Positions 7,601 through 63,925 of a DNA stretch of 64,000 bases are shown here, one piece after another; position 1 is the stretch's first letter; every line of letters begins with the position of its first letter. The DNA comes from Buxus sempervirens (taxonomy: Eukaryota; Streptophyta; Magnoliopsida; Buxales; Buxaceae): positions 11,992,061 to 12,056,060 of the forward strand of contig OX387188.1 of the NCBI GenBank assembly GCA_947561395.2, read 5' to 3'. The notes under the pieces are model-generated. The model searched no databases, was not told where the DNA came from, and saw only the letters and a list, made by a program, of their open reading frames with translations. The position numbers were made by a program, and so were the translations under genes.

Positions 7601-10600
7601 ACATGTTTTGGCAAAGATGCCTAAGTCCAATGATGATGGAGTGAGTTCATTAAATATGTGAAAATAGGGTTACAGAGTATAAACCCTTTCTTGGTCGCAA
7701 ACTGCAATCTCTCTAATATAACCACAGAATCCCTAATTCGAGTAAAATAACAATGGATACCTTATTTACAAAAACACCCAATCCGAAAACCTGTATTGTA
7801 TGAATTTAAGGTACATACGCAGCGAGGACAACCTTAACGGAGTACTACCCATGACATGCCAACACAATTACCCAAATCCATAAAGAGGACTATACTTTGG
7901 TCAGATTGATGCAAGGTTTACAATTTCCGAAATTTCGGTTTCCGGCCCCCGGCGATGCGTTTCGCCGGGGGAAATCGTTGGGTTTGTGCCCCCGGCGAAA
8001 TGCATCGAAATGCCGACCGTGCCGAGCGAAATTTCGCTCGGCGCGCGTCGGCATTTTTTTTTTGAAAACGAATCGCGCACGTGCGCGCGGAATTAAACGA
8101 GGCGCCGGTCGATTTGGGCGAAATTTCGCCCAAATCGACCTGCACATCAAGAAATAGGGGAGGACGAAGGGGGTATAACCGTATGCTTTGGGGGGGGGGG
8201 GGGTATTTTGGCTCGATTTTGGCGTGGATTTGATGAAATGCACACGTTGGGGTAAGATCGTTTTTTTCAAAATTTTTTGATGAAATGCTTGTGGAATGTG
8301 TTGAATTTATTATATGTTGAAGCCCGACACCCGATCTACAGATGGGTGTCGGCGTTTTATTTTTTGCACAAAAAAAATATTTTTTGCAATTATTTGTGTC
8401 GAAAATGCATATAATTTCTTTTTAATTCATTAAAATTAGATAAATATTGTTGTTGACTTTGATAATTATATATGTTAGATGGGGGCACCCGATCTACAAA
8501 TGGGTGCCCCCGGATTAATTTTTTAGAAAATTAATTTTTTTATTAATTTTTAAATCCGAAAATTAATTAATTATTAGTAAAATTAATAAAAAGATAAATA
8601 TTCAAATTCAATTCATAAAATTGATTTAGTTATTGTAGAATGATTTATGTTAAATAATTGGAGTTTATATAATTTTTTATGTATTTTTGATTTTTTTGGA
8701 ATTAATTAATCCGAAATTAATTAATTATTAGTAAAATTAATAAAAAAGATAAATACTCAAATTCAATTCATAAAATTGATTTAGTTATTGTAGAATGATT
8801 TATGTTAAATAATTGGAGTTTATATAATTTTTTATGTATTTTTGATTTTTTTGGAATTAATTAATCCGAAAATTAATTACTTATTAATTAGTTGGTAATG
8901 ACGTAATGTTAGTATTGTCTAATGTGGATTAATATTTATAATTTGTTATTGTGCTCTGTTATTGACTTATTGTGCGTTTGTGCAGGTGTTCAGATTCCAG
9001 TGTAGTACTTTTTGGTTAGTCTGTTAGAGACAGTCAGACGGATAGACAGTATGGCATCTGGCAGTGGTAGTGGAGAGGGCAGAGATGCTGGTAGGAGGCT
9101 GGATATTGGTTGGGCCCATTGCACGAGATTCGAGGGAGACAGAAATAAGACGGTCTGCAACTATTGCCACCAAGTCATAAAGGGTGGTGGAGTATCACGA
9201 TTGAAGCAGCATTTGGCACACGGCTACAATAACGTGGCCAACTGTCGTCAAGTCCCTCCAGAGGTTAAGAAGCTGATGCAACAACACTTGGCATCAGGGA
9301 GTGCAGCTAGGGAGGGGAAGAGGCATGCACGGGAGGAGGTTAGACGTAGATTGGCAGAGCCTATCGGACCCTCTGTGGCTCCTGATATTGATGACGACGA
9401 TGATATGGTGTACCCACCCGAGTATGTGACAGAGGGAGAGAGGGCAGCATTCAGAGCCTCAGTGCAAGCATCTTTGCAGTCTGAGTTTGAGAGAGCAGAG
9501 GCTGCGAGGCATGGATTTCACAGGGGTGGTACGTCTAGAGGAGATGCAGATGTTGATGCTCCTACTCCTAGTTCTAGACATGGGGCTGGGGCTGGACCTA
9601 GCATCAGGATGCCTGATTATCCTATGGAGCCGAGTATGTGGCGTTCATCTGGTGCCAAGCAGAAGAAATTGAAGGATGTGTGGAGCAAGGGCACTGTCAG
9701 GGAGAAAATGGGGAAGTTTATATCAAAATTTTTTATCTTCAATCACATTCCAGCGAATGCAGCAGCGAGCCCCCATTTCAAGAACATGGTCGATGTTATC
9801 CAGGAGTCGGGTCAGGGAGTCTTGCCTCCTACGCCACGGGAGATTATGGGTACGTACTTGGATCAGGAGGAGGCAGAGATGAGAGAGTTTATTACATCGT
9901 TACGACCCCACTGGGAGCAGTTTGGAGTTACGATCATGTGTGATGGATGGACAGGTCCTACTAAACTGTCCATCATCAATTTTATGGTGTATTGTAGAGG
10001 CAGGGCAGTGTTCGTGAGATCTATTGACGCATCACACAATATCAAGGATGCGCCCTATATTACCGGCTTATTAGAGAGCGTGATACAGGAGGTTGGCGTT
10101 GAGAACGTCGTTCAGATTGTGACAGACAGTGCCAGTGCGTTCATGAAAGCCGGTAAGACATTACAGCAGCGGTATAACCTGTATTGGGCGCCCTGTGCTG
10201 CACATGCCATTGACTTGATACTAGAGGAGATTGGCAAGAGAAGCCATGTGCTGACGACATTGAAGGATGCACGAGCACTCACCACATTTGTGTACAACCA
10301 TAATTTCGTACTAGCGAAGATGAGAGAGAAATGTGGTGGGGACTTAGTTCGGCCAGGGATTACCAGATTCGGTACAAACTATATTGCATTGGATAGTATT
10401 CTGAGCAACAGGCAGGGATTGAGAGCTCTATTTACCAGTGACGAATGGACGAGTTGTGCTCAGAGTCGCAAAGAGACCGGGAGGAGAGTAGAAGAGATTG
10501 TTTTGTCCAATACTTTTTGGGAGCATGTGCGAGAGTTGATTGCTGTACTGCACCCCATATATCATATACTGCGGCTGCTTGACACAGATTCCTATCCTAC

Positions 10601-21857: not shown

Positions 21858-21866
21858 AATCTAAAT

Positions 21867-22058
21867 GGCAAAATTGCTTTTTAGTGTTAGTTTATGAAAA
21901 TAATTATTTTTCAGTCACCCACTTTATCGAAATTGCTTTTTAGTGATACTTTTTGAAAACATTTGAAAACAAGTGGCGTTTTACTGTTCATGGACGGGAA
22001 TACCCCTTTAGACTTTCACTTACCCATTTTACCCTCATTTACGTTTACAGAAATGCTC
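21867..22058 (+). repeat. MULE left terminal inverted repeat
   Basis: Starts GGCAAAATTGC and includes TTTTACTGTTCATGGACGGG, shared with the right end. It is preceded directly by the 9-bp target duplication. Confidence 0.93.
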
Positions 22059-24529
22059 TTCTCTTAGACCCTGCGAAACTTCTTCTTCAAGCTTTGTGGA
22101 TTCGAGCGCCAAAACTGGACGACCAGAAGCATTGCAACTTTTGCCTTGAGAAAACCATCTTTTTCGTGTTCGACTTCTTGTTCATCGAGTTCACCAGCCA
22201 TCGTGTTCGTGTTCTTAAGGCATCGAGCGCTTGTTCGCCCTAGGTTTTTCAATCGAGCGAAAACCATCTTTTGCTTCATCTTCAGCCATCGTGCGCTCAA
22301 TCTCAACCATTTTTGTGTGCTCTTGGTCCTTCAAGAGGGTACGATGTGATCAAATTAATGGATTTTTTTTTTCTGTTCCTATGTTGATCAATTCATCTTC
22401 GGGTAGTTTAATTCGAAATTACGAAAGTGTGAGCTGAGGCGTCTCCAAATTTTCTCGGCCTTGTTCTTCTTCTACAGACTTTTTAGGGCTTCAAGTTCTC
22501 TGGAGAAAGAAAGAGCGGGACAGAGACCAGCACCCTTAAGAGCCTGGGCGTTCATTCCTTTCTCTGTGTAAGTATCAAAAGGGAACACTGAATTTTTCCT
22601 TGATGTTTTACTGGTTTTGGAGTTTTTCTGAGCACTAAAATCCATCTAGATGTGCTTTTCGTCGTTACTTTTTTTTTCTTCTGAATTGAAAGAATACATG
22701 GGAAAGGACGAACAAGAAAGAACAAATCAATAGAAAAAGGAAAAATGAAAACACAGGTTTTACTTCTGTCATTTACTGTGATTGTTATTTGCATTTGGAG
22801 AAATAAGAGTGTCTGTAAAATTCATCAATACATGTAATGCAATAGGCTCTCAACATGATTGGGAGTAAGAATAGGTGCTTGTAAAGTTTATCCATTCATA
22901 TAATTCAATAGAATTTCAAAATGACACTGAAACTTGAAACTAACTGAAAATTTTGAAATTCTACTGGAAATTGAAACGAATTGAAATTCTAATGTATTAG
23001 AGTGAAATGGCATATCAGAATTTTTTTTTCCTATTGATTTCTCTAGATTAGCTTGTAAATGGTGTATGCATCGATGTGGTTGTAATGCCTCAAGGATAAA
23101 AATTGAGAAAATGTTTTTAGGAGCTTAGGAGATACAATATTTTTTAGTATTTTAGAATGAAGCAAGAGTTCTTATGGTTTTTGTTCTGTAATGTAGAGAG
23201 TCCCCGAAGAGCCTTTGGAATTGACGGGGTATAATTATTCGTGAATCTTTGCCTAGAGTGGAGAGGTTGTCAATTGAGCGTGTGGAGATCCACTTATGTT
23301 GATATGGGTATTAATAATTTTATTAGTTATTTCAGGAAATAATTATAAGCAGGCCCCTCCTTAATAAATTAGATATCCCTTCAGGCTTCTATGATGTGGA
23401 ATGTGATTTCCCTGATTTTGGAAGGTTTATTCTGTGAAACAAACATTAAGAGTTATTCTCAATATGCCATGTCCCAGAAAGAAAATCAGCCTAGAGGAGT
23501 ATATTTTGTTGATCCGGAGACTGTTTTTCTCTTATGAGTAATGAAGTTATTCTGTTAAGGATAAGAACAGAGACAAAGCTTAGGTTGTCTAAGGAAGTGA
23601 CATGAAGAGCAAACCATTAAAAGTGAGCCAGCCCAAGGGAGAGACAAACAATTAAACAGAAAAAGAGAAAAATGAAAAGAAAAGAAAAGGGAAAAAAAAG
23701 ACTACTATAATTATCATGATGCATAATCTATCACACGTCACCATGTAGCATCGTATCGAGGTGAACCCCTATAAACATCTCAGTTCTTGTCACACCATCC
23801 TTGGCTAGCCTATTCGTTTTATCATTTGCTGATTTCATACATGATTGAAAGTTTAACTGAGCTTCCCAAGCTCGAGTAAGGCTCATTAAAGCTTAGGTTC
23901 AAGTCACAAGCCTAATTAATTATCTAGCTCAGGCTTAGCTCAAACAAGCTTAGCTTAATTCTGAGTTAAAATGGCACATTGACAGCTTGAAATCTAGCTA
24001 CAATCATCCCCCACCCATGAAAAAAAAAAATGAAAAGTAAAAATAAAAGTTAAGATTTGAGAAATAAAAATAAATAAAATAATTGATTAGTAAATAAAGA
24101 GATGTAAGATGGCTGATATCAGAGTCCTAATGGGCCAATGTAGGCTTTTTTTAAAATTTATTAAGAAAAGTTAATCTAGAATTATAGTTTCTCAATTACT
24201 ATTTGTCAATGGATACATGTTTAATTATTACTCTAATCTAATGCATTGTTATCACTTTCACATTATTTTTTATAGGGCCACAACACAGATATGTGGCATA
24301 ATGATCTCTCCCTTATGTATGACAATGATGATTGATGAGACTACTTACTTTAATATGCATAGTATTGTTTAAGATTAAGTGCTATTGAACATTGGTTCAA
24401 GCCTTTCATCCATGTTATATTTTATTTGTACATTATAAATTATATATAATTTGGTTTTTGGTATTTAAATAATATTTAACTTCCATGTATTATATGTTAC
24501 ATGGTGAACTACTATCAATATAAAAAAAA
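22059..24529. other. MULE interior, noncoding or unrecognised
   Basis: The first 300 bases resemble the inner side of the right end only in patches (TTCTTCAAGCTTTG, GAGCGCCAAAAC). The remainder is AT-rich without recognisable protein similarity. Open frames are short and look like chance. Confidence 0.5.
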
Positions 24530-24995
24530 TTAAAATTCAGGATTTGAGTTGTATAAATTTGACAAATCTAATGGACAGACAACAATATTCTCCAAGAGTC
24601 GATCTACATGTGCTAAGAAACAATCTTCACAAATTTGCCCAAGAGATGAATATATAAGTACTTGGTGAAGTATCATGCTTATGAGAGGGTGAGGGAGCCA
24701 CACCTCCAAGGGAAATATTATTATGTATTGCAATAGCATCCAATGATGGCATAGGTTCAGCTAATAGACCCAGGCGGTTTATTTTGGTAGAAAGACCTGG
24801 ACGTGCAACAATTAAGGAATTATACATTGAGGAGACCTTTTCCCACACCATACTCTCTAGAAGTCTTTCTTCTAAAGAATTTAGATGTCATCTCAACTCT
24901 CTTGGAAGTGATTCTTCATCATTTTACTCTTGTTATCTGGTCCGGGTGGTTCTATTTGTCCTATCAACCTACTATGGATTTCTTTCTCCCTCTCT

Positions 24996-25211
24996 TTATC
25001 TTTCCTTGAAGTAGAAACTTTTATTTAGATGTTTTTTCATCTGCCTTGTTTCTCTGGTGTCTCCTTGGGTAAACCGCCTTGCATTCTTATATCTTCCAGA
25101 TAAATGTTGCTTGAGTCCAGAAACCGTTCCACTGTTAATCATTTGGTTATAGAATTTACAAACTGATTTATTGTTACTATTCAAGTAAAGTACCCCACGG
25201 CTGCAACCCAT
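24996..25211 (-). pseudogene. Decayed BED zinc-finger remnant (hAT-type)
   Basis: The minus strand reads SVCKFYNQMINSGTVSGLKQHL and then YKNARRFTQ, the layout of a hAT-type BED finger. One zinc-binding cysteine of the first pair and the last cysteine are replaced (CKFY instead of CxxC, F for C), so metal binding is doubtful. Nothing of the transposase core follows. A further open stretch on the same strand (24530-24851) is not recognised. It lies directly downstream of the minus-oriented minisatellite array, which could once have been part of the same transcript. Confidence 0.6.
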
Positions 25212-25286
25212 ATCCTACCTGACACTTGTCATCTCATGTCAAAATACACCAATGTGAATCGAATATGGGAAATCAAGCATATAAAA

Positions 25287-25952
25287 ATATAACAAGTTTA
25301 CGGACTTGTAAAGCAACTTCATGGACTTGTAAATTCCATTTAGGGACTTGTAAACCACTTGTAAATTGCATTTAGGGACTTGTAAACCGAGCCTACGGAC
25401 TTGTAAATTGCATTTAGGGACCTGTAAACCACTTGTAAATTGCATTTAGGGACTTGTAAACTCTGTTAGTAGACTTGTAAACCCTGTTAGTAGACTTGTA
25501 AACCTCATTTACGGACTTGTAAACTAAGTTTATAAACTTGTAAACCGAGTCTACGGACTTGTAAATTCCATTTAAGGACTTGTAAACCACTTGTAAATTG
25601 CATTCAGGGACTTGTAAACCCTATTAGTAGACTTTTAAAACTCATTTACGGACTTGTAAACCGAGTCTATGGACTTGTAAATTGCATTTAGGGACTTGTA
25701 AACCGAGTTAACGGACTTGTAAATTCCATTTACGGACTTGTAAACCACTTGTACATTGCATTTAGGGACTTGTAAACCACTTGTAAATTGCATTTAGGGA
25801 CTTGTAAACCTTGTTAGTAGACTTGTAAACCTCATTTACGGACTTGTAAATTCTGTCTACACAGACTTTTAAATTCCATTTAGGGACTTGTAAACCACTT
25901 GTAAATTGCATTTAGGAACTTGTAAATCGAGGCTACGGACTTGTAAATAGTG
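25287..25952 (-). repeat. Minisatellite array, minus orientation
   Basis: About 30 units of 20-22 bases built on (A/G)TTTACAAGTCC(n) read on the minus strand, with a few unit types (CCTAAATG, CGTAGACTCG, TACTAACAGG endings). Part of it is open and translates as repeats of the type VYKSLNG. It is homologous to the plus-oriented array at 32072-33365. Confidence 0.93.
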
Positions 25953-26046
25953 TTGTATGTTCCTAATGCTATTATCTTTACAAATTGGATGTTGTATACT
26001 TTGAATAGGACCGTCTTTTTCCACACATGTTTGGTTATTTCTGTAG

Positions 26047-27147
26047 GTTGTCCACGCACTCAGGATAAGTCTTATAAAGAAACAACAATTGGCTAATGAG
26101 AAAGGTGTGACAAAGCACTATTTGGCAAGTTATTTTAGTGTAAGCATCCCAACTTTTTGTCTTCCGAATTGAATTTTCTATGGCTCCCATCTTACACCCC
26201 ACTTTTGTGCTTACATCAAAACTCTACGTGTGTAGCAAATGGTACTTGGAGCAGAATATTCATTGGAACATATGGAAAAATGTTTTTTTGATGATCGCCA
26301 GCTTGGCTTTCACATTGTTCAATGCGAATTGGTAAGGTCCTATGAAATTGCATTAGTTAGATATGTGGAGTCATGTTCAGCTGCACTTCTTTTTTATTTC
26401 TATAATTTATTGATATATATTGGAGTTCACAGATATTCATCCTGGTATGTCACGAGGAGCATTGGTTTTTGGTTATCGTCAATTTAAAAGCTTGTAGAAT
26501 TGAGCTCTTGGATTCCTTCCCGCCAAGACGACGTGATGCATATCATAAACTGGTTTCACAACTGGTTTGTTATTATTTCACCAAATATAAATTAATAGTA
26601 ATGGAGTTAACTAGTTTTTGTCTCAAATCTCATGATTCCATTTTCTTCTGTGTAGGCAGAAGCATTGGAAAAGGTCTATCGGACGCATAATGTTCAGGTC
26701 CCCATAACACAATGGGAAGTAGTCTCCGTTGATGTCCCGCATCAAACTAACGGGTATAGTTTTGAGTCAATCCTTGCATAATTAAAGGAATTGTTCACAG
26801 TCCTAATGAATCTTGTTCCTGAATTTAGGTTTGATTGTGGAATCTTCATGCTAAAGTTCATGGAGTTATGGGATGGCAACAAATTGACACACTATTTTTC
26901 CCAGGAAAGTGTTTTGGCTTTTATTGCTTTACGTACTTGATTCAATTCAATTCATTGACTATGTGGACTGATTAATGAATTGATCTAATTGTTTAGGCTG
27001 ATATAAAGTACTTCCGGCAGAAGTTGTTAGTGGACCTTGTCCTCCATAGTGCAAATCAAGTGCGGTATACAATCTGGATTCAATTTGATCTTAAGGAGTG
27101 GAAAAACAGGGATATAATTGGGATATATCACAAGTGTCTACGATATG
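26047..27147 (+). CDS. Ulp1/C48-type cysteine protease domain gene of the MULE
   Basis: Exons read at 26047-26139, 26236-26331, 26433-26564, 26656-26753, 26829-26904 and 26997-27147; frames and phases agree across them. The domain shows the C48 layout: EEHWFLVIVNL with the catalytic His, LLDSFP with the Asp about 17 residues on, and HQTNGFDCGIFMLKF with the oxyanion Gln and the catalytic Cys. Before it, an L-I-K-K-Q-Q-L helix matches the usual start of the family. Ulp1-like enzymes cleave SUMO or related isopeptide bonds; copies carried by plant MULEs are of unknown function. The N-terminal exons are not identified. The donor after 26904 reads CAG/GAAAGT rather than GTAAGT, so splicing there may be impaired. 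The protein may thus be partial, though all catalytic residues remain. Confidence 0.8.
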
Positions 27148-27277
27148 GTGAGTTTTTGAACCAATGCCATGCTTGTTTTGCTTTAGCATACTTGTCTCCA
27201 TGCAAAGACAAGAAAAGTGCCATCGATTTATGTCTTTATTCTGCAATTTCTGATTTTGTTTTATTTCTTGTTTCAAA

Positions 27278-27523
27278 ATGAAGACAAGGTATTGCTATGG
27301 CTTTGGAATGTTACCTCCAGGACTTATTACGTTCTATTGTTTCAAAATGATGCTAGGATATAATCCTAGCATCAACCGGGCAGATATTGAGCATGCGGCC
27401 GTTATGCACTACAATGGTAACATGGAACCATGGTTGGAGCTGGCAATTGGCAAGTGTAGATGATGCGGACAAAGTAAATCAAGCTCGATCACCCTCAGCT
27501 TCGTAACTGTAAGCTGGGTGAAT
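27278..27523 (+). pseudogene. Captured 3' fragment of a GAUT-type galacturonosyltransferase
   Basis: The plus strand reads MLPPGLITFY, then LGYNPSINRADIEHAAV and MHYNGNMEPWLELAIGKCR. A little further on is LDHPQLRNCKLGE followed by a stop. These are the C-terminal blocks of GT8-family galacturonosyltransferases, Golgi enzymes that build pectin. A segment between the first two blocks is missing and the last block is in another frame with an in-frame stop before it, so this is a nonfunctional remnant. The catalytic N-terminal part is absent. It lies directly after the Ulp1 exons inside the MULE, consistent with transduplication of a host gene end. Confidence 0.75.
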
Positions 27524-28494
27524 GAAAGGAGCAGCTGGAGATCCCTTGGGAATGTCTATATGGATGGAGTGCGGGTTTTGAGGCACGATAAATGGCATTA
27601 ATACGTTCTTGAGCTGGACATGTTTTCTGGCATATTCATTATTTTTCTTTTAGTTCATTTCTATTCGTTTGTCTCAAAGTCATCATATTCTTGTATCAAC
27701 TCTTCATTGACAGACTTGTAGGGGGTCGGCCATGTAAATTGTTGTTTATTTTTAATGTTGGGGAATTTAGTTTTCTTGTGTTCTGATGACCAAACCTTTA
27801 TTGAATGGATTAAAGTTTATTTAAAGTTCTTTTGTTTCATCAATTTTCTCTTCATGAATAAGATGAAAGCTTTTAATGACGAAAGTATCATCAATGTACG
27901 TCCCTAAAGGCAATTGCAACCCTTGAAACCAATGTCAACAGCCCCCAATCCAGATATAAATGGAAAATCGCCATTCCGCTCCATGTTAAATTCTTCCCAA
28001 ATGCATTCCACTACCCAACTATATCATCGTGATGGATATCCATAAACCTAGCTCTTCTTATCACTCCAAAGCTTGGTCAAATGGTCAGTTGGCCGATCAA
28101 ATTGGTCTCTAGAATGATACGGTCAAATGAAGAGACAATGATATAGCCTCTTGGGGACTTCTCCCCTGGTCATCCAATGGTTCCAACAGAGGGTGGATAC
28201 ATCCATGTCAGGTAAACTGCAGTGTCAACCCTCACTGTCTCCGGCTACAATAGAAGATAATCAATAGCTGTGATGGTGCTTCTGCTACTCCATCCCCACC
28301 AACTCTTTCTATCTCCTCATCACAATCTTTTTCTCTATGTTCATTCCTCATGATTTTTTTCAAAATGACAAATTTTCTCTCTTTTGAAAATGCCCGGCAC
28401 AGCAGGGGCACGATTAATCCATGCCGTGTCAGCCAGTCTCTAATGCTTTATAGAGCTTGACTACGCGCTTGAGTGAGCATCGTTGTCCACACAG
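27524..28494. other. MULE interior, unassigned
   Basis: No coding region recognised. The minus strand has a stretch with partial open frames near 27880-28260, but no family could be named. Confidence 0.45.
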
Positions 28495-29035
28495 AGCTTG
28501 AGCCCTGCAGCTAGCTCTGTTTAGCTTTGGTCTCGGGTTGTACAAAAAAACTCAGAGAGTGCATCGCTCGATAAAGCTTGATGGACCGCTCATGCATTCA
28601 AGTTGTTCTACATTGCTCGAGCCCTTCAGCTAGCTATGTCTAGCTCTGGTCTCGGGTTATGCAGAAAGATCAACAGCGACCAGAGCTAGATAAAGCTTAA
28701 TGGACCGCTCAAGCGATTGCCTGTGTTGTTCTCCATCGCTCGAGCCCTTCAGCTAGCTATGTCTAGCTCTGGTCTCGGGTTATGCAGAAAGATCAACAGC
28801 GACCAGAGCTAGATAAAGCTTAATGGACTGCTCAAGCGATTACCTGTGTTGTTCTCCATCGCTCGAGCCCTACAGCTAGCGATGTCTAGCTCTGGTCTCG
28901 GGTTATGCAGAATAATCAACAGTGACCAGAGCTAGATAAAGCTTAATGGACCGCTCAAGCAATTGCCTGTGTTATTCTCCATCGCTCGAGCCCTGCAGCT
29001 AGCGATGTCTAGCTCTGGTCTCGGGTTATGCAAAT
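28495..29035. repeat. 123-bp tandem repeat with internal hairpin
   Basis: About 4.4 copies: units begin near 28495 (divergent), 28615, 28738, 28861 and 28984 (partial). The later complete copies carry a perfect 13-bp inverted repeat TCTAGCTCTGGTC / GACCAGAGCTAGA around a loop of about 26 bases; one G-to-T change lies in the spacer of the third. Each unit starts with GCTCGAGCCCT. Confidence 0.93.
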
Positions 29036-29560
29036 TGATATTTTTTATATTGGGGAACCTTTTTAATGTAATATTACTCCCAAATATAAGAGAACATCAG
29101 TAAATTCACTTGTATTCATTCTTTGAAGGCTAGCATGTGTACATTTGGAAGAATTGATCCAATGTATGTAATTTATCTTCTTTCAAAGTCATCTTTTCTA
29201 GTTCTTGACATGTGAGCTGGAACCATGTTTTAGAAAATTTTGAAATCTGATAGTAGTTTATTTTCTCATATTAGCAGAAGGGCAAATCTGTTGATGAATT
29301 ACAACTAGGATTTACATGGTATTCTGAATAGTTCTTGGAAAAAAAAAGGCCCATATATGGAACCAACTCAAAATCTATTGAAAGCCTAATGGCACAAGAT
29401 TGTTCTGTAGTGTTAGTATGTTGCAACAAGGCTGCAAAAAACAGAATTACAGTGGTGAAGAAAAATTTTGGTGTTGAAAGATAATAAATGCTTGGTATAT
29501 TGACAACTTGATATGCTTTTTCCTCAATGCATCTTCATCTTGAGTCAGGACCTGAATTTA

Positions 29561-31410
29561 TTATATGACAGATCCATCTTTAATTGTTGAGTTCCTTAAT
29601 ATGACTGTGATGCCGGATCTGATATAGAATCCTTCTGAAGATCTGTCAGCCTCTTGTATCCCCTGCAGACATAACCAAGGAAATAAAATGAGGCAAAGGA
29701 CTTTTGAGTTGTGAAATCAAAACAGAAGAATGGCATTTGTCCACTTATGTGGCATATATGCTGATTTGCTGGACTGTACCATGAGTACAAACTGGTAAGT
29801 TGAGGCAACTTTATCATGGATTACCAAGCAGTGTGTCTTGTCTAATATACATTTGTAGTTTATTCCATCCTAGCAAGTAACCTCTCCATATTTTAATCAT
29901 CTGTTATAGAAAAGGTGCTGTAACTCAAATATCCACTTTGTTGGTCAAAATTGGAAAAAATAAAAAGAAAAAGGATAAGAGAATTTATTGTTGGCAACAA
30001 GAAACTTCTCGCGCCATTTTCCGAGGCTTCTTCTTTCATTTTCCAAGAATTTAATTAAATAAGCTGACATATGGTTATTGTAGTGCCACAACAAGCTTGA
30101 TACAGTTGATGTAATGTGAACAGTTTTTTTTCCCCTGGTTAATCGGATAAATTGTTGATTTTAGGCAAAGCCATTAGAATGAGGTAGAAGTAATTCCTGA
30201 GATATCAATTTTGATCTGTATTACTGGATTTTCCATTGAAATTTCAAAAAATGCTTAAGGAACTGTACCTCTGAATTAGAAATTATGACATTCTTTCCAA
30301 TTCTTGCATTCTTGTCAATGATGCAGTTCCTAAACAACAGAACAATAAGATTTTTGAGTAAGTAGACGATGTAGAGCTATATAATCTATAAAATAAATGC
30401 TTTAGGTTACTTGATTTCTGTATTTTCTCCTATGCCAATTGGAACCCTCCCTTCAGCCAATAGTGATGCTACTTCAACGTTGGTTTCATAGTAGTCAGCA
30501 CCAAGCATCACTGTATCCTGCATGTACAACATTCCATCCCATCAAAGGCAATTTTTTTTAGATTGACACATAGAAACATCTACGAGAAATACTAATTTAC
30601 TTAGTTGCTAATTTTCCCATAAACATTTTATAGGATAATCTGAACAAACTGTTCATGAAACCTAAAATGCTTATTAGGCCATGGTTTCTCCATCTATTTT
30701 TGTTAATCAATATAATCAATAGATTTGAAGGTCACAAGAGCTACAAAAGGATCTTATTAACAGAGAAAAAAAAACTCTTATGATCGGACAAGGTATTTAG
30801 TAGGTGCCCTTAAACAAAACTCAAAATAACATTTTAGTTTTGCAGCCGTTGGCCCCACAGGTATTCATGCCATCAACATGTTCTTTCGGGGTAAAATACC
30901 AAATATTTTGTCTGCATATAAAAATTCTTTTCTGAAAATCAGTCCTCTTTTGAGAAATATTTATACTTTGACATTTTGAGAACTTTGACAAACTAACCTG
31001 CAAGTGAACACCACTGTTTATTCGGGATCTGATGCCAACTATGCTGTGCTCTATCAAGCAATTGTACAAGAGAGTTCCATGTGATATTATAGAATCGACA
31101 ATCTATAAAAGGATAGGGAAATTATGAAATACAGCTTGACACAATAAAATGAGCAGCGATGAAAGTTGCAGAAGAGAAACATTGCTTACTCTGTACATAT
31201 TGTTGTTAGGTCATAGGATGAATCCCCTGTGGTAACAAATTCCTTAACACAAAAAAAAAAAAAAACATGTACAATACAGCTCTCTGTCTCAACTACGAGG
31301 ATGAGAAAAACTTGATCATATCCAAGATAAACAAACCTTGATATTGTCGATAGTTGATGGTGGCAGATTTCTTCTTGATGTATATATTGGCTTTGTAGTC
31401 ATTGGTTTCA
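29561..31410 (-). pseudogene. Captured C-terminal exons of ADP-glucose pyrophosphorylase large subunit
   Basis: Five exons on the minus strand: about 31337-31410, then 30998-31102, 30411-30517, 30269-30329 and 29561-29662, with proper GT-AG borders and phases. They read [96 protein letters not shown] and a natural-looking end in DGSVI plus TAA. This is the left-handed beta-helix domain of the plastid starch-synthesis enzyme, roughly the last 145 residues. The N-terminal nucleotidyltransferase half and the start are missing, so it cannot be a working enzyme. No stop or frameshift lies in the retained exons, and introns are kept, so the capture was from genomic DNA and is not very old. It sits inside the MULE, opposite to the Ulp1 gene. 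Confidence 0.88.
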
Positions 31411-31925
31411 GGGTGACATGGACTGACTACACTCTCCAGATGTGCCAGTTACCAAACAATGAAACCATGTAGAAATACAGGTCCAGTCTGAAATGAAAGA
31501 ATACAATTATATGCAGATTATGTCATATTAAGGTATTATGTAGTCTCGAGACATTAGTATCTCAAACCAACCTTGATTATATGTAGCTGTATCAACTTTC
31601 ATATTGTTTCATCTCAACAGTCCAAGTTAGGGGGATCTGTATTGGAAAATCAAAAGTACACATTCCATATTATCCATGAATCAAGTTTCATATATCAAAA
31701 TACAAATGTCTACGATATCAAAGTACCCATTAACCATCCATAAGGGTAATGCCACATGAGGATATGGAAAGATTTGACAGCCCATGGACTTGGCAAGCAG
31801 GTTTTTATCAATTCTGTTGGTTTCTTACGTGTCCACATGAGTGGTCTGGTTGCTACTAGCAGCCAATTGTTAGACTTATAGGATGATACAAAATTCATCC
31901 AGAGTCATATCGTCTTGCAAAGGAA

Positions 31926-32129
31926 ATGGCTAAGGTTGTCTATGAAGAAGAGGTCCAAGAAGATGCAAATGATGAGGATGTGCATGAGATGGCAATAGAG
32001 CATGTTAGGGAACAAACAAACCTATTAAAATCTCTTCTCATTGATGAATATGCTGAAAGCCACAAAGGGGATGAGGTTTACAAATCTACTAATAGGGTTT
32101 ACATGTCCCTAAATGCAATTTACAGATAG
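31926..32129 (+). CDS. Hypothetical acidic ORF leading into the heptad array
   Basis: An open frame with acidic and helical character (YEEEVQEDANDEDVHEM, then REQTNLLKSLLIDEY) that runs into the minisatellite as VYKSTNRVYMSLNAIY before closing. A codon string upstream (HPESYRLAKE) keeps the same frame. No family recognised. It may be the 5' part of a gene whose exon was invaded or expanded by the repeat. Confidence 0.35.
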   Translation: MAKVVYEEEVQEDANDEDVHEMAIEHVREQTNLLKSLLIDEYAESHKGDEVYKSTNRVYMSLNAIYR

Positions 32130-33365
32130 TTTACAAGTCCGTAGACTCAATTTACAAGTCCGTAAATGAGGTTTAAAAGTATACTAACAGGGTTTACAAG
32201 TGCTTAACGGTATTTACAAGTAGTTTATATATCCCTAAATGGAATTTACAAGTCCGTAGACTTGGTTTACAAGTCTGTAAACTTGGTTTACAAATCCCTA
32301 AATGCAATTTACAAGTCCTTAAATCGAATTTACAAGTCCGTAGACTCGGTTTATAAGTCCGTAAACTTGGTTTACAAGTCTACTAATAGGGTTTACAAGT
32401 CCCTAAATGCAATTTACAAGTGGCTTACAAGTCTCTAAATGCAATTTACAAGTCCGTAGACTCAGTTTACAAGTCCGTAAATGAGGTTTAAGAGTCTAAT
32501 AATAGGGTTTACAAGTGCCTAAACGGCATTTACAAGTGGTTTATATATCCCTAAATTACAAGTCCGTAAACTCGGTTTACAAGTCTGTAAACTTGGTTTA
32601 TAAGTCCCTAAATGCAATTTACAAGTGGTTTACAAGTCCCTAAATTAAATTTACAAGTCTGTAGACTCGGTTTACAAGTCTGTAAACTTGGTTTACAAGT
32701 CTACTAATAGGGTTTACAAGTCCCTAAATGCAATTTACAAGTGGTTTACAAGTCCCTAAATGCAATTTCCAAGTCCGTAGACTCAGTTTACAAATCCGTA
32801 AATGAGGTTTAAGAGTCTACTAACAAGGTTTACAAGTGCCTAAATGGCATTTACAAGTGGTTTATATATCCCTAAATGGAATTTACAAGTCCGTAGACTC
32901 GGTTTACAAGTCCGTAAACTTGGTTTACAAGTCCCTAAATGCAATTTACAAGTGGTTTACAAGTCCCTAAATCAAATTTACTAATCCATAGACTCGGTTT
33001 ACAAGTTCGTAGACTTAGTTTACAAGTCTACTAACAGGGTTTATAAGTCCCTAAACGGCAGTTACAAGTGGTTTACAAGTCTCTAAATGGAATTTACAAG
33101 TTCGTAGACTTGGTTTACAAGTCCATAAATGAGGGTTACAAATCTACCAATAGGGTTTACAAGTCCCTAAATGCCATTTACAAGTGGTTTACAAGTCCCT
33201 AAATGCAATTTACAAGTCCGTAGACTCGGTTTACAAGTCCATAAACTTAGTTTACAGGTCCCTAAATGCAATTTACAAATGGTTTACAAGTCCCTAAATG
33301 GAATTTACAAGTCCGTAGATAAGGTTTACAAGTCTACTAACAGGGTTTACAAGTCCCTAAATGGC
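32072..33365 (+). repeat. Minisatellite array, plus orientation, heptapeptide-coding
   Basis: About 60 units of 20-22 bases built on GTTTACAAGTCC plus a variable end. Recurrent variants end in CTAAATGCA, GTAGACTCG, GTAAACTTG or TACTAATAGG. When units are 21 bases long they read as VYKSLNG, IYKSVDK, VYKSTNR and similar. 22-base units shift the frame, so only segments are open. Same family as the inverted array at 25287-25952. Confidence 0.95.
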
Positions 33366-33692
33366 AATGATGATGATAATGATGATAACGACAATGGTAA
33401 TGACAGTGATACTTATATGGCTTCTGATGCCTCCTCCGGTCCAAGTCATCAAACACATCCAGGTGCAAATGGTGAGGAGGGTCACAGATTGGCTCATTTT
33501 AAGCATGATGCGGGTCAGAATGAACACCAGCTTACCCCATACCAAAAGAAAAGCAAGCAAGCAAAGAAGAATAGAGATGAAACAAGGATAAAAGCCAAGA
33601 AAGAAGAATTAAATTTTGTGGCAAATAGTGCTAAATCTGTTCAAAGTAGTGCTAAGGTAAGGAAAAATGACTGGATAAACAGACGAAAATAA
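33171..33692 (+). CDS. Hypothetical ORF: heptad repeats plus Asp/Asn-rich and Lys-rich tail
   Basis: The reading frame leaves the array with VYKSLNGIYKSVDK and VYKSTNRVYKSLNG, then has a low-complexity run of Asp and Asn, a Ser/His/Gly-rich linker and a basic tail rich in lysine (PYQKKSKQAKKNRDE). No known domain, signal peptide or membrane segment. The first part of the frame is just repeat DNA. A real gene, if any, would be the exon 33365-33692 with its upstream exon near 31926. It lies inside the MULE; function unknown. Confidence 0.35.
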   Translation: MPFTSGLQVPKCNLQVRRLGLQVHKLSLQVPKCNLQMVYKSLNGIYKSVDKVYKSTNRVYKSLNGNDDDNDDNDNGNDSDTYMASDASSGPSHQTHPGANGEEGHRLAHFKHDAGQNEHQLTPYQKKSKQAKKNRDETRIKAKKEELNFVANSAKSVQSSAKVRKNDWINRRK

Positions 33693-36660
33693 ATGTATTT
33701 TATGTTGTTCATGTTTATTTCTGAAATGGTTGCATCTGGTACATAATGTTATCAAATAATCAAAATAGACCATAATTGATGCCTATGTTGTATTTTTCCA
33801 GGCATACAGTCTGATGTTTGAAACTTTGAATCAAGAAATACAATGATCAGATAAGCTATGAATGCTTGAGCATATCTGTACATAGAGATTATGTGTTTTA
33901 TATGTATACTGACCAATATATATGCCTATACAGAGATCATGATATGCAAATAAAACAGAATGCATGGTGGTATCCTCCTCTAGCCTAGGTGCCATAGGCT
34001 TCTACTGATAGTTCAGACGGCATGAAGACAGGTTTTACACCCCCACTGGGGACTCAAAATTCAAGTACATATCAAGAGTACTTACCAAGTGTGTTAATAT
34101 TAGCAGCGTTAAGGGAGATATTAAAGATGTAGCTCAAACGCTTCTAGAGTAGCAGGGAAGCAATGATGAAATGAAACCAGCCACAGAGCATCCTACAAAA
34201 CAATACAGAGACCACACACGAAAGAAGGGGAAAAAAGGCAAAGGAAAGAAGTTCTTATTCATAAGATATCAGAAACTCATTATCATACATCATACAAACA
34301 TAAAGTATCTAGGTTCTAGTCCCAGCTTAATTCTTAAACATTTTGTACCACAAGCATGAGGTCATCGCAATTTACAAAATAAATAACTACAAGATATGAA
34401 AAACAAGTTTCCCAGACCATCACTTGATGAGATGTTAAATTCAGGTATGAGCACAATTACTTTGCAGCTAAAATGCCATGGGTTAAAATCTATTGCCATC
34501 CACCCCTCCAAGGGTCCTACTTCAGCGAACTGAGTTACAGTTCTTTTACACAAAAATTTAGCCACAATAATAAATGCAAACCGGAACAAAAGGTATCCAA
34601 AAATTATAATAGAATAAGACTGGATGGACCCAAGATTGCATGAGGCAGCATAGGATAAGAGAGGATGTTCCCAACTTAGGAGAGCCTGTACCCTAAACTT
34701 TCAGAAAAATTGTTTTGTGTGTTGGTGGTGAAAAGGTATAGTTTGTGTTTGGAAGCATAAATTCCATTACATCAATGACCAGTCTTCTCACGAAGTACAG
34801 AAAATGCACTACCAAATGGGAGGTCCAAGCAAAGAAGGAGAGTGTAACTCTATTTCTACAGGTATGACCCAACCATTCCTCCCTTTGTATTTGTCTCATT
34901 TTTTAAAATGTATGATAAGATAGCCAAGTAATCATTTCTTTCTGACTCTTAGCTCTTCCGTCAGTCCTTAGAAACTAGACTCCTTTGGGAACTTCAAATT
35001 TTGGTTCAAGTTCATGGCTATTAGATTTTAATTTTCATGTATATTTAGGTACTATTTCTAAAATGTTCTTTGTGTAACAAGTTTCAATTTAATAAGGATG
35101 ATTATGCATGATTTAGTTTCATTTTTTGGATATAAGCTTTCTCAAGAGTTCATTTCAATCACTATCTTTTGCAAGTATTTTTAGAATCTTAGAAAGAAAT
35201 CTGAGATGGTTTTGCCGTATGTTTAAACTTCAAAGAATCTATATGGTACCCTCGAAATTTGTTCTCAATTAGCTAGAGTTAGAAATTTGTTTTGGAACTT
35301 TTTTTCTATAGGCTCTCATATGAAGGTAGCAGATAGTAATTTTTCAGTATTTTAGGACTTTATTATGATTTAATATATATATATATATATGAAAGTGCAT
35401 AGCACTTCTACAATTTCTCGGGGAAAACTAATAACCAAAAGAAAAGGAATGCTTGAATGAAAATTTAATCAAATGAAAATACATTGAGATGAATACTTTG
35501 TTGTTCCCAAAAAATTTCTATATCTGATATAAGCTGATTGTAATAGCTTCCTGCTCTCATAACAGAACATCCTTATTTAACCATTGGTTAGACCACTTTT
35601 GATACATAATTTAAATCCTAGTTTAATATCAATTAAATTAATTATAAGTGGCCATCTATTCCTTGACCTAATGAACAGCAGTGATTGAAGATGGGTTGTG
35701 CCACAAAAGTTGTTTATAACCATGATCCAGATCATCTAATAAAACTAAACTAATAGATGCATCTAATCAGACTAATCTAATAGATGCTGAAGACTTTTCC
35801 GCCTCCATACTCTTAGTAGTTCTTTTTAGCTCTAGACCCATAATCAGACGTGCATAAACAGTGTGTGTCATCCTTTTGGCTAATTTATTTATTTTTTGGG
35901 GGGATGAGACCATGGAGTCCAGTATGGTGACAACGTGTGCAATGTGGGGCTCTTTAAGAATTGATATTAGGCTCAAATCTTTGAGGCAAGCAACAAAAGT
36001 TTGAAATTTTTATAATCACCATGAAACTTCAAAATAACAAGTTAAAAATTTCACCATGATTACTAACTTTCAAATATAGAATAAATGCATGATACTAAAA
36101 CAATAGAAATAAAAATTCATTTTTTTTCCCTTTTGATATTTCCTCAACAACCACTACGTGAATCAACAAAGCATATAGCCTTTGTGTTCTTAATCTAGAG
36201 AAAGGAAGCTTTAAACAAGAATTGAGGCTCAATAAAAAAATGAAATCCAAATGGACAGCCATAGCTAACACAACAACACAATAGAACCAAAATCTTGTAA
36301 ACTACAGCACTTTGAGGAATCTAATTTGGGGCATGTTGAAGTACCATACAATGCTGGTATAAGCTATCCAACATTCCAGTCCCAACATAACATTACTTGT
36401 TCAATGAAAAGTGATTTAAAACATCAATGTCAGTTATAGGTCCTTGCCTGCTTAGCAATATTGAATCACACGGTATGAAAGGATCCTGCTACATCGGTCC
36501 TCTCATAGGTGTGAGCTCCAAAATAATCTTGTTGAGCTTGAACCAGATTAGCTGGCAACCTATCCCTCCCGTAAGTGTCAAAATAAGCAAGACTTGCCGT
36601 TCTCAACAAAACCTTAACTAAAATAAGGAAGAAAGAAAGGCATTGACAAGTGGGAGTGTA
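33693..36660. other. MULE interior, unassigned
   Basis: AT-rich with short chance frames. A short TA run lies near 35370-35390. No domain or gene border was recognised in this 3-kb stretch. Confidence 0.5.
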
Positions 36661-36915
36661 CCAAGCTAAGAAACTAAAACGAACAAATGAATAGAAAGAT
36701 CAAATTAAAGATCAGCCATTCTCAACAAAACCCTAACTAACGAATAGAAATCTGCAAACGAACAAACAAATAAAAAGATCAAACGAACAAATAGAAAGAT
36801 CAAACGAATGAATAGAAATCTGCAAACAAACAAACGAATAGAAACATCAAACAAATGAACAAACGAATAGAAACAATTTGGAGGTACATCAGCCGTTCTC
36901 AACAAAACCCTAACT
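36661..36915. repeat. Degenerate short tandem repeats near MULE right end
   Basis: Repeated GAACAAACGAATAGAAA-like units, with copies of TTCTCAACAAAACCCTAACTA at about 36718 and 36895 and a related one near 36600. Probably subterminal repeat sequence of the MULE. Confidence 0.7.
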
Positions 36916-37252
36916 AAAGATCAAATTATTAACCAGAAATCTGCAAATAAAGCCCTAGAGAAACCCATAAAAAGTCCATTACATTGTATGCGATCAGAAT
37001 AGAAAGATCTTGTCGGAATCACATACCCGATGCACCTGAGGTGAAGTTCCCAAATGATGAGGACGACACAACCGGTTTTAGCGCTCGAGTGAATGCTCCC
37101 CAAAGCTTGAAGAGGATACGATCGGTTTTGATAGAGGTCACGATCGTTTTGGCGCTCAATCAAACTCCCCAAAGATTGAAGACAACATGATCGGTTTTGG
37201 CGATCGATTGAAATCTCCTTCAACTTGAAGACGACGATTGTTTGCAGGGTTC

Positions 37253-37447
37253 AAAGGGCAATTGTGTAAACGTGAATAAGGGCAAAATGGGTAAGTGAAA
37301 GTCTAAAAGGGTATTCCCGTCCATGAACAGTAAAACACCACTTGTTTCTAAATGTTTTGAAAAAGTATCACTGAAAAGCAATTTCGACAAAGTTGGTGAC
37401 TGAAAAGCAATTATTCTCATAAAGTAACACTAAAAAGCAATTTTGCC
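37253..37447 (-). repeat. MULE right terminal inverted repeat
   Basis: Reversed copy of the left end, about nine in ten bases identical, followed directly by the 9-bp duplication AATCTAAAT at 37448-37456. Confidence 0.93.
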
Positions 37448-37542
37448 AATCTAAATTAGGAAAACGGTGATCCCAAAATACATGTAACTCCCAAAATATG
37501 ATTTTTTTCACTGAGCCTAATTAAAGGTGCACCTCACACTAA

Positions 37543-62649: not shown

Positions 62650-62765
62650 GTGTAGCCGGCCTGAGATACCGGTTACACACAGGTCTCTGTGTATCCGGTA
62701 TCTATTACCGGCTACACAGAGGCTTCTGTTGATCCGGCCTGAGTTACCGGATCAACACACAGAAG
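62650..62765. repeat. Three (G)TATCCGG-type hairpins
   Basis: Three consecutive inverted repeats with arms like TGTAGCCGG, GTGTATCCGGTA and TTGATCCGG and their complements, each with a loop of about eight to ten bases. Confidence 0.75.
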
Positions 62766-63683
62766 CCTTTTTTTGGGATTTTGGCACTGGGGTTGGATTT
62801 TTAAGCCTCTTGGGATGCTCCAGAGGTCGTGTGGGCTCCCGGGTGAGCCCACAGTGGATCAGGTGAGGGCCCCTTGGCTCTTCTTTGGGGTTTTTCAAGG
62901 CCAAACAACACAATGGGGATCGAAGGGATCACCCCCTCCTTTTATCCGCCTAAGCTAGGGGCCGACCAGGGGCTTGGGTATCCCTGATTTGGTTTCCCTT
63001 GCTCCAAGACAAACTAGCATGCTTGCACGAAAACAAATAAGAATAAAGAAAAGCAAGCTAAGAGTGCAACCATACCAGCCTAAGATTATGACATGCATGC
63101 TTTAAGTCCTAATGGCTAACAAACTTGGTGCATGCATATGGTATCCACTAGACATACATTCCATGCAATTAATTGTGTCAAGCTCATTTCCAAAATCTAA
63201 CGAGATAATATTTAAAGAAAGGAAAGGGAGGGGGGCTTATATGAGGGATACATTAGCGGGACGATCAGAAATCGAGGAACATGCTCCCCCATGCAAGCAA
63301 AATGACCAAGAAAAGCTATGGAAAACATGCTTAGACAGAAAATATCACATTATGCTCAAAAGATGCTCATTTTAATATATGTTGAATAAATCATGTCAAG
63401 GAACAATACCTTGGGGTCTCGTGACCTTCGAGTGGTGTGTAGGCTCCTCTTGGCAGCAAGAGCACGGGCTGGAGCTCCTCCTTTCAATAACCAAGTGAAG
63501 AAGAAGGAGATGGAGAAGGGTGAGAGGTCCTGGAAGTAAGGCTTGGAGGGTTTGGGGAGCCAAAGGAGGCCAAAAGGAAGGGACTTCGGAGCTGGAACAG
63601 TGGGGAGAAGGAGTGGGAAACAAGCAAAAATGGAGCCAACCCCGAAAATGAGCTGTTGTTTGCTATTTATAAGCAAACTTAAT

Positions 63684-63925
63684 GTATCCGGACTTCAAGT
63701 CCGGATACACTAAGGCTCCTTTGTATCCGGACTTGAAGTCCGGATACACTAAGGCTCCTTTGTATCCAGTCTTCAAGTCCGGATACAAACACAATCATTT
63801 GAAAATTAAATGCCGCTGCGAGCTTGTCGGTCAAGTGGCGTGAATCCTGCAGAAATATCTTCATATATCCGGTCTTCATGTTCGGCTATGAAGGAGAGGC
63901 TGTGTATCCGGTATACATGACCGGA
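63684..63925. repeat. Five TGTATCCGG-type hairpins
   Basis: Consecutive inverted repeats of the form TGTATCCGGACTT..AAGTCCGGATACA, the first two perfect or nearly so, the last three diverged. They lie upstream of the minus-strand TATA box, as in the left-edge fragment. Confidence 0.8.

Follow-up and report, generated by a model that had tools for sequence, protein, structure and literature searches.

The 64,000-nucleotide stretch of Buxus sempervirens DNA analysed here (the window; G000:C10:11992061-12056060, genome of 676.5 Mb) contains a 15.6-kb Mutator-like element (MULE) at positions 21867-37447 that is very probably a non-autonomous, multi-capture Pack-MULE, belonging to a family of MULEs with terminal inverted repeats (TIRs) that encodes a MuDR-type transposase elsewhere in the genome. 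This high confidence covers the Pack-MULE explanation and not the possible docking-site role of the element's repeat arrays, which is treated separately below. The cargo consists of pieces of at least five identified host genes and one further donor, and the window lineage occupies at least four sites, having been copied as a single unit. Both borders of the element are exact. Its inverted ends (21866-22060 versus 37254-37448) are 195 nt long and 91% complementary, its tip reads GGCAAAATTGC, and it is flanked on both sides by AATCTAAAT, a 9-bp target-site duplication (TSD) with 0 mismatches; the long TIRs and the roughly 9-bp duplication of a MULE are thus both present, and the end alignment and the flanks bear out what had been proposed from the letters of the window alone (the sequence-only reading). 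The TIR-to-TIR divergence is unusable for dating, because the 9% that separates the two ends of the window element stands against 98% agreement among left ends from different copies.

A genome search with the left end, in which the best 40 of 538 candidates were scored, yielded three more insertions of the composite body, namely C15a (C15:7018026-7033432, 15.4 kb), C15b (C15:31384120-31402902, 18.8 kb) and C21a (C21:5771130-5783016, 11.9 kb, with an internal loss). All three lie between matching ends and have their own target duplications, two of them perfect and that of C21a with one mismatch, and the order of the body parts is identical in the three copies and in the window. Outside the arrays, the divergence from the window copy is 0.60% for C21a (60/10016), 0.62% for C15a (81/13021) and 1.19% for C15b (155/13020). 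C15b has extra DNA of 2.8 kb at window 24476-24478, which is the left edge of the retinoblastoma-related (RBR) piece and includes further RBR sequence, and of 315 bp at 31395; C21a is without window 28664-32407 and thus without the ADP-glucose pyrophosphorylase (AGPase) and SPT6 pieces. Because three other loci carry the composite body with their own duplications, both ends belong to one mobile unit, and the identical cargo at several sites documents the movement after capture that is expected of a Pack-MULE. These copies, found by the search that the sequence-only reading had suggested, support its view of a single Mutator-like unit that contains a C48 part and captured host DNA but lacks a transposase.

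The family has members beyond these four copies. With at most one mismatch, the 20-base tip is found at 105 genome places, and a reversed control at 0. We read 11 other paired insertions in full; the 9-bp duplication is perfect in nine of them, contains one mismatch in C21a and is absent from C22b. In four elements added later, the duplication is perfect in C22c and L057, displaced by one base in C4c and absent in L056, which brings the total to 12 perfect duplications in the 16 elements with both ends examined, the window element included.

The cargo was found by six-frame Pfam scans, genome DNA searches and comparison with donor loci (Table 1). The Pfam scans of the window element detected C48, RB_A, the 6PGD C-terminus and the AGPase beta-helix, with HHH_9 reaching only E 0.056. 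Donor loci 90-98% identical were found for the captured pieces except for that of GAUT (79%), so that host gene fragments lie between the TIRs and separate donor copies lie elsewhere in the genome, and the donors are identified by Pfam as RB_A (2.4e-65), 6PGD (5.5e-127), SPT6 HHH_7 (1.2e-19), Glyco_transf_8 (3.7e-52) and the GLGC beta-helix (2.9e-19). Aligning captured segments with parent genes had been suggested as a check, and it matched the donors, with only a more distant relative for GAUT. The two gene fragments recognised from the sequence alone are both real: the five AGPase exons on the minus strand share a reading frame and correspond to residues 334-477 of a 477-residue AGPase large subunit from the PDB, and the GAUT 3' fragment on the plus strand was recognised by eye and by its 79% DNA identity to the C9 locus with the Glyco_transf_8 domain. 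The Pfam scans of the window did not reach the GAUT piece, where the frame is broken, and the homologous stretch of C4c scores 7e-14. With no more than 79% identity to the C9 locus, the piece may be older, or its nearest donor may have been missed. The earlier count of two captured host gene ends was too low, as it had missed the RBR, SPT6 and 6-phosphogluconate dehydrogenase (6PGDH) pieces and a 1.5-kb block. The 6PGDH piece lies in a captured block (33361-36599) made up of the last ~43 codons of the gene (Pfam 36472-36603) and ~3.1 kb behind it. A 173-aa open frame at window 33171-33689 crosses from motif array 2 into this C6-derived block.

The element-donor divergence is 2-10% in the eight matched pieces other than GAUT and exceeds 6% in six of the eight (gaps included), compared with the 0.60-1.19% that separates the whole-body copies from the window copy. 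AGPase pieces are found in the window, C15a, C15b, C3a, C21b, C19a and C12a and not in C21a; RBR pieces are found in the window, C15a, C15b, C21a, C11a, C19a, C21b, C3a, C4a and C22c; and the 6PGDH block is, among the elements compared, confined to the window copy, C15a, C15b and C21a. This differing spread among relatives therefore indicates layered captures, with 6PGDH taken up late, and the internal losses appear to have come after the captures. Because donor introns and intergenic DNA came along with the captured pieces, the capture was from DNA, presumably by gap repair or template switching. Microhomology at the joins was considered as capture evidence and dropped, since BLAST overlaps there are 1-6 bp and the exactly shared bases at the four AGPase gaps (~1, 1, 4 and 2) are too few.

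No mudrA was detected by the six-frame Pfam scans of the window element, and a search of the window with the family's own transposase gave nothing convincing (best E 0.075 over 14 aa), in agreement with the sequence-only reading. The transposase is found in relatives with the same TIR. In C19a, where the frame is interrupted, DBD_Tnp_Mut (MuDR DNA-binding), MULE and SWIM are recognised and PB1 falls narrowly short of its cut-off. C4c (33.3 kb) has C48 and GAUT together with a MULE transposase (DBD_Tnp_Mut, MULE and SWIM) that is likewise interrupted. An earlier tblastn comparison of seven MULE transposases of this genome with 13 elements had given nothing better than E 0.056; these queries were too distant, and Pfam at the spot where several weak tblastn matches converge revealed the full MULE domains in C19a and C4c, so the view that the family has no transposase was rejected. 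When the genome was searched with 405 aa of the C19a protein, the best 103 of 860 candidates were scored; among them were six other transposase copies at least 90% identical over at least 344 aa, all with a TIR-family match no more than 20 kb away. One of the six is C22c (C22:28742023-28758963, L052-L053; 16.9 kb), which has a perfect TSD and an uninterrupted 635-aa frame with DBD_Tnp_Mut, MULE and SWIM. The 123-bp array of the window element also stands directly behind the transposase frame in C19a and is carried by C22c and C4c as well. A comparison by eye of 150 of 1051 PF10551 candidates with 100 listed TIR places showed no overlap. C22c also contains a separate open reading frame (ORF) with PB1, 62+4 copies of the motif described below, GAUT and RBR pieces (RB_B at E 2.5e-4, under the cut-off) and a Transposase_32 ORF.

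We propose that the ancestors of the window element would have carried a transposase, a PMD/DUF1985-like-C48 gene and tandem arrays of the 9-mer ACTTGTAAA, and that they would have repeatedly taken up host DNA from RBR, GAUT, AGPase, SPT6, 6PGDH and other sources. The window lineage, now without the transposase and without the N-terminal half of the C48 gene, would have lost these parts; it was copied as a unit to at least four sites, presumably with transposase from relatives, and supply in trans seems the natural reading.

The ACTTGTAAA motif is present in the window element in 75 copies, forming two mutually inverted arrays, and the large tandem arrays claimed from the sequence are present, with a richer structure than had been stated. 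The remaining 48.4 kb of the window contain no copy of the motif, and neither do 41.9 kb of 14 other loci, so that a short motif lies in non-coding tandem repeats that are family-specific in the loci read. Across 12 elements, 57-75 copies are found in eight, 22 in C19a, 16 in C4b, 3 in C4a and 0 in C22b, that is, 16-75 copies in 10 of the 12. The arrays are helically phased: in 19 arrays, 631 of 664 steps deviate by no more than 1 bp from a multiple of 10.5 bp, the steps being non-independent through tandem duplication, and in array 1 the steps are 21 bp (21 times), 11 (four times), 32 (twice), 42 and 44. Between arrays of different elements that are at most 88% alike (304 ordered, non-independent pairs), identity is 94.1% in the motif columns, 86.1% in the commonest spacer words and 72.7% in the rest. 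Genome-wide, we counted 2156 motif pairs spaced 21 bp apart, compared with 0 for the reversed pattern, and the 100 pair places listed, all on C1, form nine motif clusters. Two small array-bearing elements were read on C1. L057 (406-2654 of that locus; C1:19467305-19469553) is 2.2 kb long and has TIRs with the tip GGCTAAATTGC, a perfect 9-bp TSD and 54% array; this variant tip occurs at 13 of 100 listed TIR-tip places, of which only L057 was read. L056 (935-3018; C1:1445734-1447817) is a 2.1-kb foldback with inverted halves 98% identical, a TIR-like end and 66% array, and no TSD was found for it. An array pair similar to L056 lies at C1:33737996-33739731.

The protease part gives a Peptidase_C48 match at ~26433-26621 on the plus strand (Pfam E 4.7e-5). 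Four joined exons produce a 134-codon core in which His, Asp, Gln and Cys, which we take to be the active-site residues, are readable, as in the C48 domain of Ulp1-bearing MULEs; no canonical donor was seen that joins the fifth and last exon in frame. A gene on C1 (L041, C1:23454800-23459000) has a C48 domain and, both under the cut-off, PMD (1.2e-5) and DUF1985 (9.6e-5) matches. A tblastn comparison with this gene gives matches to the N-terminal exon in C4c (two pieces, E 3e-31) and, in the window, to the C48 exon only; Pfam found nothing in the C4c stretch matching the N-terminal exon. A C48 domain fused to a VANC-type N-terminal part is thus absent from the window element and was seen only in C4c, by tblastn and not by Pfam. 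Because the N-terminal exon of C4c is missing in the window, the window C48 is a C-terminal remnant, and the protease gene of the sequence-only reading holds for its C48 part and not as a complete gene. An ORF at 26997-27278 connects the last C48 exon with GAUT coding sequence; a C48-GAUT fusion gene was dropped as a candidate on account of an inserted base in C15b and differences in other copies.

Two alternative accounts concern the unity of the element and the state of its protease part. The inverted ends could belong to separate miniature inverted-repeat transposable elements that happen to flank a pseudogene patch, and the abundance of TIR-like ends in this genome, with 105 tip matches, together with small clan elements such as L057, lends this idea some plausibility. 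This was the condition set beforehand as fatal to a single unit, and it was rejected on the three whole copies, in which a 12-19-kb body sits between matching ends with its own 9-bp duplication; it is almost certainly wrong. The C48 part could also be a working gene kept for the element's own benefit, as the dN/dS (nonsynonymous to synonymous rate) of 0.22-0.31 over the 134-codon core between the window and four diverged copies, the frame open in the window, C21a, C15a, C15b and C12b, and the presumed active-site residues would suggest. We consider this unlikely, since the N-terminal exon is missing, the last exon is without a visible canonical in-frame donor and frameshifts disrupt three of the four diverged copies; furthermore, dN/dS is 0.26-0.90 among the diverged copies and 0.75 between the window and C15b (4 changes), and the noncoding divergence of 6-17% is only moderately above the dN of 4-9%.

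The role of the arrays is less certain than the Pack-MULE explanation. The phased arrays would be putative cis docking sites for a family-encoded anti-silencing protein of the VANC type or for the transposase, with no firm ranking between the two. The ACTTGTAAA arrays resemble the tandem target motifs of the Arabidopsis VANC anti-silencing proteins, and by this analogy we suggest, tentatively and as a somewhat doubtful reading, that a TIR-MULE clan outside the VANDAL group might run its own anti-silencing, in which the PMD/DUF1985-like-C48 protein of the large relatives would recognise the arrays in full-size, gene-carrying and 2-kb elements alike. If true, such protection would explain the continued movement of 15-19-kb gene-laden elements. 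Similarly doubtful is the possibility that the arrays are instead binding sites of the family transposase. Subterminal repeats of CACTA and Ac/Ds elements bind their own transposase, the family encodes one, and L057, with TIRs, a perfect TSD and more than half of its length in array, looks as expected of cis-sites for mobility; however, the window arrays lie 3.4 and 4.1 kb inside the element ends, and C4a, with only three motifs, is 96.7% identical to the window over its left 2.6 kb and has a perfect TSD, so that the arrays are not strictly needed for a jump. Equally doubtful is a neutral origin, in which recent unit duplication alone would account for the conservation of the 9-mer. The 21-, 32- and 116-bp units visibly duplicate and the control spacer words are also fairly conserved (86%), but conservation is higher in the motif than in the control words for 281 of the 304 array pairs, and 10 of the 12 full-size elements, as well as the two small elements that were read, contain arrays.

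Several observations weigh against our own account, most of them against its VANC part. Pfam found no DUF1985 in the window or directly in C4c; the C4c link rests on tblastn from the C1 gene with its sub-cut-off DUF1985 and PMD; and the C1 locus has no ACTTGTAAA within 4.2 kb. A genome search for DUF1985 gave three matches, all sub-threshold, and DUF287 did not turn up in the Pfam scans of the window and relatives, no genome search having been aimed at it. The window family has 195-bp TIRs, whereas VANDALs are described as non-TIR in PMC13317346. Four of the nine listed motif clusters lie near a listed family match, with a fifth showing a TIR-like end; one of 36 window-array comparisons shows no better conservation of the motif than of the spacer (0.904 versus 0.906); and even spacing, with a degree of motif conservation, arises from tandem duplication by itself. 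Further candidate actors are transposases of 75-77% identity whose open frames span 613-647 aa. Finally, the direction of transfer for 22330-23849 is assumed, because the Pfam scan of its presumed donor, C6:51293428-51294992, found no domain.

Table 1. Features of the MULE in the window (positions are those of the window).
Feature	Position	Strand	Details
TSD, left copy	21858..21866		9 bp, AATCTAAAT
Left TIR	21867..22060	+	tip GGCAAAATTGCTTTTTAGTG
Presumed capture	22330..23849		90% to C6:51293428-51294992 (presumed donor)
Block common in pieces to C1 (42.3 Mb) and C15 (9.65 Mb)	23848..24478		85-95%; origin ambiguous
Captured RBR fragment (RB_A domain)	24477..24919	-	donor C10:45380122-45380560 (93%)
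Stretch common to other elements of the MULE clan	24916..25290		adjoins array 1
Motif array 1	25304..25947	+	30 exact ACTTGTAAA
C-terminal part of C48 (Ulp1-type) protease gene	26236..27065	+	
C48 exon model	26236-26331, 26433-26564, 26656-26753, 26829-26904, 26997-27065	+	
GAUT (glycosyltransferase family 8) 3' fragment	27079..27829	+	frame broken; 79% to C9:45054590-45055415
123-bp tandem array	28496..29032		4.4 copies
Captured AGPase large-subunit gene end	29029..31575	-	donor C15:34878642-34882600 (92-98%), four internal gaps
AGPase exons	31334-31396, 31001-31102, 30410-30526, 30269-30331, 29564-29665	-	
155-bp repeat	31589..31743		several other genome places
Captured SPT6 fragment (HHH region)	31766..32076	+	donor C1:47484258-47484569 (94%); HHH_9 only E 0.056
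Motif array 2, inverted to array 1	32130..33354	-	45 exact TTTACAAGT (= ACTTGTAAA)
Captured block, 3.25 kb	33361..36599	-	from C6:43663182-43666436 (92%)
Subterminal region common to other family members	36623..37253		
Right TIR	37254..37447	-	91% to left TIR
TSD, right copy	37448..37456		9 bp, AATCTAAAT

Elsewhere in the window, short arrays of 39-bp tandem units lie near both window ends (1750-1840, 62656-62750 and 63683-63787); they are partly palindromic by eye and possibly represent subterminal repeats of another element. A tandem duplication of 155 bp with 97% matches is present at 8553-8886.

Like the Pack-MULEs of rice, maize, Arabidopsis and Lotus, the window element has MULE ends, a 9-bp TSD and donor introns, is without an internal transposase and carries a chimeric cargo copied as a unit. 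It differs from them in having at least five identified donor genes in 15.6 kb and a cargo history that can be traced through partly overlapping relatives; in the Pack-MULE literature we found no published figures for element size or number of donors by which to rank it. With the Ulp1-bearing (KIU) MULEs of Arabidopsis (KAONASHI), melon, rice and grapevine it shares a C48 domain inside a MULE, and the longer gene of these elements, with its N-terminal PMD/DUF1985-like part, is matched in a relative of the window element. KI-MULEs are non-TIR according to PMC2528002 and PMC13317346, whereas the window element has 195-bp TIRs and a truncated C48 joined to a GAUT fragment. According to PMC2528002, the presence of ULP in MULEs is independent of the presence or absence of TIRs and probably had several origins.

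The third comparison is with the VANDAL/VANC system. According to PMC13317346, VANDALs are a group of MULEs, and an Ulp1 domain (KIU) is part of some VANC genes; their Arabidopsis VANC targets are described as 8-9-bp motifs in non-coding tandem repeats, YAGTATTAY and AGTTGTCC/AGTTGTAC, in PMC5735166, and as rapidly diverging tandem repeats in PMC10398659. The window family likewise has a short motif in dense, non-coding tandem repeats specific to one transposon family. Its consensus is ACTTGTAAA, as against YAGTATTAY and AGTTGTCC/AC for VANC, and by our comparison it fits the VANC-target outline A-[G/C]-T-N-N-T-A. Because TIRs are present and the DUF1985 scores are under the cut-off, we do not claim VANDAL/VANC membership. 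Pack-MULE capture, Ulp1-bearing MULEs and VANC-type target repeats are each known, and here they are combined in one family in one genome, where donors, part-built relatives, whole copies and transposase-bearing relatives together make the order of capture, erosion and spread directly readable. The arrays are the part most worth following: if they are docking sites for an anti-silencing protein, such protection would not be confined to the Arabidopsis VANDALs but would also reach TIR-MULEs and their gene-carrying passengers.

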